Assembly (NCBI GenBank): GCA_029553855.1
Contig: JAKPKE010000018.1
Location: 1 to 64,000, forward strand
Length of the DNA: 64,000 nt
Reading direction: 5' to 3'
Source of the DNA: Bacillota bacterium
GTDB taxonomy: Bacteria; Bacillota; Clostridia; Lutisporales; Lutisporaceae
A program made the position numbers and the translations under genes. Under the pieces are notes generated by a model. The model saw nothing but the letters and a program-made list of their open reading frames with translations. It was not told the DNA's origin and searched no databases. Positions 9,366-14,353 of this stretch are shown piece by piece (position 1 is the first letter of the stretch; each line of letters starts with the position of its first letter).

Positions 9366-9371
9366 ATTGTT

Positions 9372-9420
9372 AAGGAGTGTCGCGAGACTACCGGATAAGT
9401 AGCTGACGGCACTCCTTTTT
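9372..9420 (+). terminator. Rho-independent terminator after ymxH
   Basis: Stem AAGGAGTG (9372-9379) with CACTCCTT (9410-9417), followed by a T-run to 9420. Confidence 0.75.
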
Positions 9421-9429
9421 GCATTAGGA

Positions 9430-9545
9430 GAAAAATGTGACATAGTCACATTTTTCAGTCACGAGTCGCTAGTCGCGAGATACGAGAAAAGTCAGGGTAT
9501 TCCTTGGGGGTCAAAGATCCTTCACTGCGTTCAGGATGACATACT
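9430..9545. repeat. Intergenic dispersed-repeat-like sequences
   Basis: This stretch contains GTGACATAGTCAC, a block of CGAGTCGCTAGTCGCGAG and ATACGAG variants, and near 9529-9541 the palindromic TCCTTCACTGCGTTCAGGA. The last is, from memory, a type of short dispersed repeat seen between genes in several bacterial genomes. It has no open frame. A similar CGAGGTACGAGG-rich tract occurs at 30518-30560. Confidence 0.45.
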
Positions 9546-9605
9546 ACCTCAACAATCTGAGCATTTTGCACAAAGGTGCCATAATATACTATGTAATCCC
9601 CCGTA

Positions 9606-9876
9606 GAGTATAGTCACACAGGGGCAAAGCCTTTGTATATCATCTAACACCTATATGGAGAGCAAATACCGGCGTGGGGAAGCTATTTTTGACGAAACCT
9701 TCCATTGACCTCGGAACGGGAATACCTCCAGGTAAAATCATCAGACGGGCCTGCAGAGATGGGACCCTCGCCAATGATTTTGCTGGCTTTGGAAGGTGAG
9801 GAGAACATACTTCCCCTACAGACGGAGTAATTCACAAACTATGTCGCATTATACTCCTTATCCGCAACACCTTTTT
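9606..9876 (+). ncRNA. Candidate structured non-coding RNA (rod-like, 6S-like shape)
   Basis: Nested complementary segments define a long interrupted hairpin: GAGTATA 9606-9612 with TATACTC 9850-9856; CCG 9669-9671 with CGG 9823-9825; GGGGAAG 9676-9682 with CTTCCCC 9810-9816; CCTTCC 9698-9703 with GGAAGG 9791-9796; CCAG 9728-9731 with CTGG 9783-9786; AAAATCAT 9734-9741 with ATGATTTT 9774-9781. A T-rich stretch (CTTTTT) follows near 9871. The helix order is colinear over about 250 nt, which chance would rarely give. I cannot name a family. The shape recalls 6S RNA, or it could be a long leader of dpaA. The strand is inferred from the neighbouring genes. Confidence 0.4.
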
Positions 9877-9919
9877 AAATTTCCCTAAAAGCTGGATTAA
9901 GCGTCATAATTGGACTATC

Positions 9920-9947
9920 ACGATTAAGGTAGTATTGACATATTATA
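9920..9947 (+). promoter_or_regulatory. Sigma-K-like promoter upstream of dpaA
   Basis: CATATTATA at 9939-9947 fits the mother-cell sigma-K -10 pattern CATAnnnTA, with an AC at 9920-9921 17 bp upstream as the short -35 element. The dpaA start is 28 bp downstream of the -10. Bacillus spoVF is known to be sigma-K controlled. A TTGACA (9935-9940) overlaps but lacks a spaced -10 of its own. Confidence 0.45.
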
Positions 9948-9975
9948 TATTACCTTTTTTTATGGAGGAATATAT

Positions 9976-10860
9976 ATGAAGAGCCTAAGATACCTTATTA
10001 TAGGCGGTGATGACAGGCTTGCAGAACTTGCAGCAATACTGGAAAGGAACGGAGATAATATCGCTACCTACGGCATGGATATGATAGAGATAGAGGGAGT
10101 GTTTAATTACCTGTCTCTTGAAAAAGCATTGGAAAATTCCGATATTATTGTCTGCCCTGTACCGTTTTCTAAGGAAGTATACAAAATCAACTCTAAGTAT
10201 TCAAGCGTTGATATTGAAATTGAAGAGTTATTTAAAAAACTGGGGAAAGGGAAAACACTTGTACTTGGAGCAATAAACAGCTATTCCAGAGATATGGCAA
10301 TAAAATACAATATAGAATATATGGATTACTGCATGGATGAAAGCTATCAGATATTAAACGCCATACCAACTGCCGAAGGTGCTCTGTCAATTTTAATCAA
10401 CGAAACTAAGGAGACGTTGTACGGAAGCAAAATACTCGTTCTTGGCTATGGCAGGATAGGTAAGCTAATTTCTGAGTATTTGAAGGCTTTAAGGGCGGAG
10501 GTTTATGTGGAAGCAAGAAAAGACTCAGATCTTACCTGGATAACTGCAAGAGGCATGAATGCAATACCGATGGATCAGCTTTCTTTGTACCTGGGGGAAA
10601 TGGATGTAATTGTGAATACAATTCCCGCGATGGTTTTAGATTGCACCAGGCTTGACAAGGTAAAAAACGATGTTTTTATATTAGACCTGGCATCAACCCC
10701 CGGCGGAACTGATTTTATATATGCAACAGAAAAAGGGATACAGACAATTCATGCCCTTGGAATTCCCGGGAAAATAGCATGCAAATCGGCGGCAGCATAC
10801 ATTTACAATACTATGCAAAAAATTCTATATAGGCAGAAAGGAGTAGATTATGAAAGTTGA
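9976..10860 (+). CDS. dpaA: Dipicolinate synthase subunit A (294 aa)
   Basis: With DpaB it oxidises dihydrodipicolinate-pathway intermediate to dipicolinic acid in the mother cell, for loading into the spore core. The protein begins with a Rossmann-like strand (YLIIGGDDRLAELAAIL), and its second NAD(P)-binding motif is ILVLGYGRIGKLISEYLKA (about residues 152-170). DLASTPGGTDF and ALGIPGKIACKSAA are typical of SpoVFA. Length is that of the family. It overlaps dpaB by 11 bp. It is intact, but its partner is split by an inserted element, so the enzyme can form only if dpaB is restored. Confidence 0.93.
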   Translation: MKSLRYLIIGGDDRLAELAAILERNGDNIATYGMDMIEIEGVFNYLSLEKALENSDIIVCPVPFSKEVYKINSKYSSVDIEIEELFKKLGKGKTLVLGAINSYSRDMAIKYNIEYMDYCMDESYQILNAIPTAEGALSILINETKETLYGSKILVLGYGRIGKLISEYLKALRAEVYVEARKDSDLTWITARGMNAIPMDQLSLYLGEMDVIVNTIPAMVLDCTRLDKVKNDVFILDLASTPGGTDFIYATEKGIQTIHALGIPGKIACKSAAAYIYNTMQKILYRQKGVDYES

Positions 10861-11132
10861 AGGACTTAATATCGGGTTAGCAGTAACCGGATCATTTTGT
10901 ACATTTGAAAAACTAATACCTGAAGTAGAAAATCTGATCCAGCAAAATGCAAATGTGTATCCAATATTCTCCACAAATGCAGCTACAATGGACACAAGGT
11001 TCGGAAAAGCGGAAGACTGGATAAGAAAGTTTGAGGAAATAACCGGGCACAGTGTAATAAAAACCATTGCCGATGCTGAACCGATAGGACCAAAAGGGCT
11101 GATTGATATTTTAGTAATTGCACCCTGTACAG
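10850..11132 (+). CDS. dpaB: Dipicolinate synthase subunit B, 5' segment of a gene split by an excisable element
   Basis: Encodes the first 94 residues of DpaB/SpoVFB plus the first base of codon 95. It starts with LNIGLAVTGSFCTFEKLIPE, which fits the flavoprotein-like fold of the family, and reaches LIDILVIAPCT. Beyond 11132 the frame leaves the family sequence and runs into the element to a stop at 11377, so the unexcised gene would give a 175-residue non-homologous fusion. ATG 10850 follows AGAAAGGAG and overlaps dpaA. Joined to 14046-14353 the frame is 591 bp, 197 codons with stop, giving a 196-residue protein of normal family length. I infer regulated excision; permanent inactivation is the alternative. 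Confidence 0.92.
11128..11132. other. Left attachment-site core (attL)
   Basis: TACAG shared with the right junction, flanked on the left by dpaB sequence GCACCCTG and on the right by element sequence AGAAGGCG. The predicted empty site (attB) would read CCTGTACAGG at the seam, a 10-bp palindrome centred on TA. The crossover dinucleotide must lie inside TACAG. Confidence 0.8.
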
Positions 11133-12642: not shown

Positions 12643-12670
12643 TTGTTTTTAACTATAGAATTGATATAAT
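12643..12670 (+). promoter_or_regulatory. Sigma-A-like promoter for the RelA/SpoT-domain gene
   Basis: TTGTTT (12643-12648), 16-bp spacer, TATAAT (12665-12670). The gene start is 44 bp further on, after AAAGGAGAAA. This suggests vegetative expression of the cargo gene. Confidence 0.5.
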
Positions 12671-12714: not shown

Positions 12715-14019
12715 ATGAGTTTGATTAATGAATTTCTTCAGAGATATGCAAAGGAATATGATTTCTACAATAAGCTTGCCCATCAGGTGGCTGTGATCTG
12801 TGAATCCATTATACAAAGAAGCGGAATCAGGGCAATAGTAACCTACCGCGCTAAAAAGCCGGACAGCCTGAGAGAGAAGCTGATTAAAAGAAACTCCTTT
12901 AAAAAATATCAGAATATAGAACAAATCTACAGCGACATTGTGGATTTATCCGGAGTAAGAATAGCTATTTATTTTCCGGGGGACAGGGAAGAAATCGGAA
13001 AACTGATAGAATCGGAATTCAATACAGAGAAAATAAAAAGATTTCCCAATACTGAGCAGAAGCATTATCAGGAGATATCATTCAACAGACAATTCACGGG
13101 TTATGATGCGGTACACTACAGAGTCAAGATAAAAGAGAATAAGCTTGAGGATAATAACAAAAGATTTGCACATGCACAGGTGGAAATCCAAATTGCCTCC
13201 TCTCTAATGCATGCATGGGCTGAAGTTGAGCATGATCTGGCTTACAAGCCGCAGATAGGAAGTCTTTCGGAGGAAGAGCTTACTATACTGGATGAACTTA
13301 ACGGTATTATTCTGGCCGGAGAAATAGCTTTGGAAAAACTGCAGAAAGCTTTTAAGCGCAGGATAGCTTCCATGGAGCAGCAGTTCAACAACCATTATGA
13401 GCTGGCAGCATTAATCAGGAGGAAAATTAACCGCAGCTTGTTGGAGGACTACTATATGGGCAGGGTAGACATATTATTAAAGTTCCTTCAAAAAATCGAA
13501 TTGGATAACCCAAGAAAAGCCTGTCCATACATGAGTTCTCTTGATAACATAAGAACAATACGGGGATACAATACAATCGTAGATTATTTTGCAGACCTTA
13601 TACTGAATCAAAACCCCGATTATTACAGTCAATATGTAGAGGCAAAGTATGAATCCAGCTATAATAATCCTTATGTATCAATTCAGAAGCAGATAATGCT
13701 CAGCAAAGAAAATACGCTGCTTGGTATATTTATAGAAAAGTGGATAGTGCTGGAAAAGACAGTAAAGTCGATGGTGCAGGATAATGAAGATAAAGAGGAA
13801 TCAAAAGTCAGAATTGAGCACAGGGAGCCCCTGGCCAGTATGGTTAAAAGGGATATAACGGCTGACGAGCTTATGCTTGAGGATATAAAACATCTTGAAG
13901 GAATCAGGAATAAAATTATTTACAGCACGGAAATGCCTGATAATCAGCAACTGGAAAACTCTATACAGTTAATATCCTTTATATTAAAGAGACTGTCCGA
14001 GCAGTCCGAAGGCAGGTAG
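12715..14019 (+). CDS. RelA/SpoT synthetase-domain protein with HEPN-like C-terminal region (434 aa)
   Basis: The N-terminal half (about residues 35-200) is a (p)ppGpp-synthetase-type nucleotidyl pyrophosphotransferase domain: YRAKKPDSLREKLIKR, DIVDLSGVRIAIYFPGD, GYDAVHYRVKI and VEIQIASSLMHAWAEVEHD, with the catalytic-type glutamate and EH..Y residues present. No HD hydrolase or TGS/ACT domain is seen. The C-terminal part (about 250-434) is helical and ends in LEGIRNKIIYS, close to the HEPN R-N-x-x-x-H motif but with Tyr for His. The architecture suggests a small alarmone synthetase or toxSAS-like protein rather than housekeeping Rel. It is the only cargo besides the recombinase. A role in defence or element maintenance is inference. 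Confidence 0.8.
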   Translation: MSLINEFLQRYAKEYDFYNKLAHQVAVICESIIQRSGIRAIVTYRAKKPDSLREKLIKRNSFKKYQNIEQIYSDIVDLSGVRIAIYFPGDREEIGKLIESEFNTEKIKRFPNTEQKHYQEISFNRQFTGYDAVHYRVKIKENKLEDNNKRFAHAQVEIQIASSLMHAWAEVEHDLAYKPQIGSLSEEELTILDELNGIILAGEIALEKLQKAFKRRIASMEQQFNNHYELAALIRRKINRSLLEDYYMGRVDILLKFLQKIELDNPRKACPYMSSLDNIRTIRGYNTIVDYFADLILNQNPDYYSQYVEAKYESSYNNPYVSIQKQIMLSKENTLLGIFIEKWIVLEKTVKSMVQDNEDKEESKVRIEHREPLASMVKRDITADELMLEDIKHLEGIRNKIIYSTEMPDNQQLENSIQLISFILKRLSEQSEGR

Positions 14020-14040: not shown

Positions 14041-14045
14041 TACAG
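14041..14045. other. Right attachment-site core (attR)
   Basis: Second copy of TACAG, preceded by element sequence AATAATTGGC and followed by dpaB sequence GCAATACTTT. Excision here keeps one TACAG copy and rejoins codon 95 as GGC (Gly). Confidence 0.8.
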
Positions 14046-14353
14046 GCAATACTTTATCAAAATTAGCCAATGCAATTACAGACACGCCTGTGCTCATGGC
14101 AGCGAAAGCCCACGTAAGGAACGGGAAACCTATAGTAATCGGAATCTCTACAAATGACGGACTAGGAATAAATGCAAAAAATTTGGCAATATTACTGAAT
14201 TCCAAATATTACTTCTTCATTCCTTTTGGTCAGGATAATCCTACGGGAAAGAGAAACTCCTTAATTGCAAAAATGGAACTTCTGATCCCAACCGTAGAAA
14301 TGGCAATGGAAGGTAAGCAGTTTCAGCCGGTGGTAATTGAGAATTTTGTGTAA
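14046..14353 (+). CDS. dpaB: Dipicolinate synthase subunit B, 3' segment
   Basis: Encodes residues 95-196 of the restored DpaB. It begins in codon 95 and continues NTLSKLANAITDTPVLMAAK, then PIVIGISTNDGLG and YYFFIPFGQDNP, all typical of SpoVFB, and ends in QPVVIENFV. The frame is open from a TTG at 14036, but there is no ribosome site before it, so separate translation is unlikely. Sequence conservation of this half argues that the split gene is still under selection. Aspartokinase follows 24 bp downstream. Confidence 0.9.

Follow-up and report, generated by a model that had tools for sequence, protein, structure and literature searches.

Known elements that interrupt sporulation genes include skin in sigK, vfbin in spoVFB of Bacillus weihenstephanensis, gin in gerE of Bacillus cereus and yin in yabG of Clostridium botulinum (PMC5595907, PMC10747680). 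Of these, gin is not a prophage and carries a restriction-modification system (PMC5595907). The 64,000-nucleotide stretch of a Bacillota genome analyzed here (the window) contains an element that, like these four, splits a sporulation gene and encodes a site-specific recombinase, and its precise excision would restore the reading frame. The host gene, spoVFB (dpaB), is the same as that of vfbin. However, unlike the described elements, this one consists of two genes within 2.9 kb, is neither a prophage nor an island, appears to have been inherited vertically across several genera of one family and has an alarmone-type cargo.

The element measures 2,913 bp from core to core and interrupts spoVFB/dpaB with divergently oriented recombinase and synthetase genes (Table 1). 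When the flanks were fused at the TACAG core, a dpaB frame of 196 codons with no internal stop was obtained, and the reconstituted DpaB was 83% identical to the uninterrupted DpaB of G005, a genome of the same genus. TACAG occupies the matching dpaB position in all of the related elements whose flanks or ends were read. Outer arms of the TTTTG...CAAAA type flank the core in most of the reconstituted attP sites, one of which is 85% self-complementary. The internal recombinase gene, the short direct cores at the ends and the in-frame restoration of a spore gene are the features of a sporulation gene-intervening element. The first-pass annotation had described the synthetase as the sole cargo, and this was correct since no plausible third gene fits between the cores at 11128 and 14041. 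A separate gene for an antitoxin or a directionality factor was sought in the window element and none was found. The g3 elements, and only these, have one extra open reading frame, located between the synthetase and attR; it encodes 211-235 residues, of which the N-terminal half is hydrophobic. Outside the element, about 600 bp of the window between ylmC and dpaA (9366-9975) hold no convincing gene; relatives such as L159 have a far shorter interval there.

Table 1. Coordinates of the spoVFB/dpaB element in the window and of the extra reading frame in g3 elements
Feature	Position	Strand	Basis
spoVFB/dpaB 5' part (dipicolinate synthase subunit B)	10850..11127	+	ends '..IAPC'; NCBIfam PRK08305/dpaB residues 1-98
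attL, left TACAG core	11128..11132	.	identical core at both element ends
Large serine recombinase, 470 aa	11141..12553	-	Resolvase PF00239 1.3e-40; Recombinase PF07508 7e-23
Sigma-A-like promoter, TTGTTT-16-TATAAT, extended -10 (TG 12662-12663)	12643..12670	+	sequence
RelA/SpoT synthetase with degenerate HEPN-like tail, 434 aa	12715..14019	+	ATG start preceded by AAGGAG ribosome-binding site
Synthetase domain, residues 3-180	12721..13254	+	PF04607 45-180; Foldseek RelP/RelQ
Middle helical region, residues 186-316	13270..13662	+	shared with tail-less 318-321-aa g7 (Lutispora) homologues
HEPN-like helical tail, residues 323-431	13681..14007	+	models, family motif, Pfam HEPN families on relatives
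RNKIIY motif, residues 398-403, at HEPN RNxxxH position	13906..13923	+	homologue alignment
attR, right TACAG core	14041..14045	.	second TACAG copy
spoVFB/dpaB 3' part	14046..14353	+	NCBIfam PRK08305 residues 93-194
Extra ORF of g3 elements	L021:4389-5036; L022:7548-8252; L023:2265-2903; L024:7489-8121

The recombinase scored best against the NCBIfam models CcrB and CcrC, followed by XisF, all far below the cut-offs; the G002 recombinase is shorter, a frame of 372 residues. Similar recombinases beyond the family were found in two (G193 and G078) of 391 sampled genomes of the class, where inspection by eye showed phage-like neighbours and no dpaB nearby, and the pairing of recombinase and dpaB was thus seen only in this family. 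The closest recombinase outside the family (L190:5496-7037, 39% identity) adjoins a response-regulator gene and has phage-like genes on its opposite side, which suggests a prophage at that site. A search by eye for a sporulation promoter of the recombinase gave no convincing candidate. By analogy with the known elements (PMC5595907, PMC10747680), we infer that excision would take place in the mother cell.

The synthetase gene product is predicted to be a single-chain pyrophosphokinase of the RelA/SpoT superfamily. RelA_SpoT (PF04607) is the only Pfam domain in the 434-residue protein (E=5.5e-15, 56.1 bits against a curated cut-off of 27). The 68 full-length homologues compared represent several phyla, among them Bacillota, Pseudomonadota and Actinomycetota. 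Residues R45, K47, K55, R59, D77, R82, G129, Y130, H134, E157 and Q159 are identical in all 68; among these invariant positions are the residues expected in the ATP-donor and acceptor sites (R, K, K, R; D; the G-loop Tyr; ExQ). In sequence the synthetase motifs are thus intact, as the first-pass annotation had stated. The donor site of FaRel2 contains K66-S70-K74 (PMC11782079), and K47-S51-K55 of the window protein has the same spacing; position 51 is Arg in 40 of the homologues. The Arg of the EIQIR(T) motif of RelP and RelQ is replaced by Ala or Gly throughout the set, and therefore the acceptor may differ from that of RelP and RelQ.

An AlphaFold2 model was calculated from the family alignment (pLDDT 89.8, pTM 0.87). 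When the model was compared by Foldseek, the small alarmone synthetases ranked first and CapRel far lower. The synthetase fold is shared with RelP and RelQ (SAS1/SAS2) at target-normalised TM scores of mostly 0.6-0.79 and about 20% identity, and most active-site residues are common to these enzymes and the window protein. The latter differs from them in its additional middle helical region and HEPN-like tail as well as in the Ala/Gly substitution.

A sigma-A-like promoter precedes the synthetase gene. TTGTNN-17-TATAAT with TGN before the -10 box occurs at the corresponding place in L019, L030, L020 and L160; no corresponding extended -10 promoter was found in the g3 elements, and an automatic promoter scan of the window favoured a different TATAAT farther upstream. 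Expression of the synthetase during growth is suggested by the promoter sequence.

The C-terminal region of the model has no beta strands past residue 162. The tail is confidently predicted to be all-helical, in agreement with the helical character originally ascribed to it, and consists of helices 323-358, 373-380, 385-403 and 410-431, the third of which is closed by RNKIIY. The possibility was considered that the resemblance of this motif to the RNxxxH motif of HEPN RNases is accidental. However, the motif position is Arg in 66 and Asn in 58 of the 68 homologues and its final residue is His in 43, Tyr in 13 and Phe in 12, indicating that the resemblance is not due to chance and that the proposal of a HEPN-like motif with Tyr in place of His was sound. 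None of the eight element copies has the His, which is replaced by Phe in four to five of them and by Tyr in the others, so that the window protein lacks the RNase-active form of the motif. Tyr or Phe is likewise present, separately on the tree, in a Limnochordia-like clade of Bacillota.

When scanned singly, the tails gave weak matches to HepT-like (16), RiboL-PSP-HEPN (6), DUF4145 (5), Cthe2314-HEPN (5) and Csm6/Csx1 HEPN families; a single match means little because unrelated helical families match as well. A profile comparison of the tail with HepT aligned the two on RNxxxH with a score of 21.6 at a formal probability of only 8.5%, whereas none of 20 column shuffles exceeded 13.7 and three further controls scored 12.9-13.4. 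A Foldseek search of the PDB with the isolated tail placed HEPN and HepT chains at the top ranks with TM scores of up to 0.56, although without significance (best E 1.1). As in HepT and other HEPN RNases, the RNxxxH position lies at a helix end; unlike them, the tail is fused to a synthetase and the His is Tyr or Phe in the element copies. Because the homologues mostly retain the His and their tails weakly match HEPN families, the protein is best described as a RelA-HEPN fusion that has lost the RNase His. Motif, profile and fold taken together, the tail is very probably derived from a HEPN domain. Established HEPN RNases depend on the motif His, and the tail of the window protein is probably regulatory.

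The first-pass annotation had also likened the protein to CapRel and other toxic small alarmone synthetases. CapRel, a fused toxSAS anti-phage protein, likewise joins in one chain a synthetase and a C-terminal domain with a potential sensing and inhibitory role. However, that domain of CapRel is a pseudo-zinc finger, whereas the one here is helical; the target-normalised TM score between CapRel and the model is 0.34-0.38 at 11% identity, and CapRel was not matched among PDB sequences in a profile search. CapRel membership was rejected, given the lack of a pseudo-zinc finger, the poor fold match and the nearer folds of RelP and RelQ, and toxSAS membership was likewise unsupported.

The distribution of the element was examined in 22 genomes of the order; most of the genomes used in this study are metagenome assemblies. 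The interrupted dpaB part with an adjoining recombinase gene was found in 10 of the 22. Wherever both ends of the element are assembled (8 genomes), the synthetase is present and the two genes are again divergent. The contigs of G006 and G009 stop just past the recombinase. The best-assembled carrier is G014 (record JAJGRE010000001, 'Calditrichales bacterium MX18-03'). The dpaB gene is uninterrupted in genus g7 (Lutispora) and in G005, a 99% complete genome that has neither the element nor such a synthetase gene. The element-borne synthetases form a single clade (100/100), and their protein distances correlate across genera with those of a host protein encoded next to the element, the aspartate kinase AspK (r=0.97), which points to vertical inheritance with occasional loss. 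Judged by these comparisons, the element is old, and its gene pair has been kept in place for a long time by related bacteria. The dN/dS ratio by the Nei-Gojobori method, limited to pairs with unsaturated synonymous sites, was 0.03-0.04 for the synthetase and about 0.17 for the tail. The synthetase is under purifying selection.

Copies outside the element were also observed. In G001, which belongs to the same genus, the synthetase gene directly follows ylmC at a contig end with its promoter kept (L160:1-356, G001:C14), and the assembly yielded no dpaA, dpaB or recombinase gene. Tail-less versions of 318-321 residues are present in all six Lutispora genomes (L011-L016). That of L. thermophila (L055) lies outside any element, adjoining an HI0933-like gene and one for a VanY-type carboxypeptidase.

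Most relatives of the synthetase have no such recombinase gene beside them. Relatives with an intact RNxxxH motif are carried by prophages (L102, L100, L099 and L101), which makes a phage-defence origin plausible. L102 is flanked by genes for tail-fibre assembly and for the tail sheath, L100 has a GmrSD endonuclease gene nearby, and tail or portal genes lie close to L099 and L101. The E. coli prophage copy in NZ_CP040927 is one of the relatives that retain RNxxxH. Copies with 99% identity, annotated as GTP pyrophosphokinase, lie beside phage remnants in E. coli strains, and in other E. coli prophages the place of L102 is taken by an S1 peptidase gene. In P2, the fun(Z) exclusion gene presumably occupies the corresponding site. 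The hotspot that PMC9122126 describes in P2 was considered as the L102 site and rejected, as it is the gpA-gpQ site, a different one. The PADLOC candidate defence family PDC-S33 matches 67 of the 68 homologues with a best E of about 1e-10. In the window protein, residues 23-169 align to positions 49-175 of the 349 in that model, so that the tail is uncovered and the match is not full-length. Intact-motif prophage cargo, the E. coli copies and prophage site, and the PDC-S33 matches are three lines that favour a conflict-related origin. No recognisable defence gene was found among the few flanking genes checked of the non-prophage relatives L025, L026, L029 and L055. Phage records gave only three matches, all weak. 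A set of IMG/VR contigs (L110-L118; 67-463 kb), most of them large and viral, encodes relatives that share 42-48% identity with the synthetase region across about 216 residues and lack the HEPN motif. In six proteins of about 590 residues (L066, L067, L071, L079, L085 and L088), the first 311 residues match and a long TPR-like C-terminus takes the place of the HEPN tail. A search of the open-access literature found no account of RelA-HEPN fusions and no published test of PDC-S33; the fusion family is broad and apparently undescribed.

These observations are best accommodated, at a rough probability of 0.5, by a growth-arrest enzyme of anti-phage-type ancestry that is now kept vertically by its hosts. 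The synthetase would be made in growing cells from the sigma-A-type promoter, with the helical C-terminal half holding or tuning it. A trigger, most likely phage infection and possibly another stress, would release synthesis of a pyrophosphorylated product, either a (p)ppGpp-type nucleotide or a modified tRNA end, and growth would be arrested. The ancestor probably had a HEPN RNase arm as well; here that arm, its His lost, may have been retained for regulation or sensing. In the sporulating mother cell, the recombinase would excise the element, and because dpaB would thereby be restored, the cargo would cost the host no spores.

The steady retention of the gene, which follows AspK so closely, is more like that of a kept host function than of a defence gene; it is unlike that of typical fast-turnover defence cargo and counts against a purely defensive role. 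A close rival, tentative in its own right, is therefore a domesticated alarmone synthetase that supplies (p)ppGpp during growth and helps to set growth arrest or entry into sporulation, the element removing the gene from the mother cell only. Co-divergence with host genes, the very low dN/dS of the synthetase, the RelP/RelQ-like fold, the tail-less chromosomal relatives in Lutispora and the G001 copy next to ylmC, with no dpaA, dpaB or recombinase found there, all agree with this view. So does the finding that G000, G001, G002, G004 and G012 encode the long Rel but no other short synthetase. However, a further short synthetase is present in G008, G010, G011 and G014, G005 has an intact dpaB and no such gene, and the prophage-borne relatives suggest use in conflict.

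G005 also weighs against the improbable idea of addiction cargo, in which the synthetase would act as a toxin whose misregulation or loss punishes cells that have lost the element. The element is compact, its cargo is kept in all eight readable cases and fused toxin-antitoxin synthetases such as CapRel are known, but there is no separate antitoxin gene, the location within a spore gene by itself disfavours imprecise loss, and mother cells are terminal. That the synthetase fold is reused as a directionality factor for excision is very unlikely: phage-type serine recombinases need such a factor to excise and the element has no other candidate gene, yet the synthetase residues are fully conserved, most relatives have no such recombinase alongside, and the factor could be encoded by the host. 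The least probable proposal is that the tail is still an active RNase in which other residues replace the HEPN His. Arg is retained in eight and Asn in seven of the eight element copies and the tail remains under selection, but the His is missing from every copy, with Phe in about half of them, and established HEPN RNases are generally known to require it.

Taken together, the analysis indicates that the RelA-HEPN fusion, which is carried by a minimal spoVFB element and whose HEPN motif is degenerate, is real and well conserved, as far as sequence comparison can tell. A more far-reaching and doubtful reading is that an ancient, vertical two-gene developmental element makes an alarmone-type synthetase a programmed property of the vegetative and forespore chromosomes and not of the mother cell, the former HEPN RNase arm now acting as a regulator, and that this synthetase belongs to an undescribed, cross-phylum family of two-armed proteins in which a RelA-type synthetase is joined to a HEPN RNase. 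Most members seen of the RelA-HEPN family, which is found in several phyla and in prophages including those of E. coli, combine in a single chain a synthetase and a HEPN RNase motif that appears intact. The finding joins two questions usually treated apart: what sporulation-excised elements carry and why their hosts keep them, and how RelA-type enzymes take part in phage defence.
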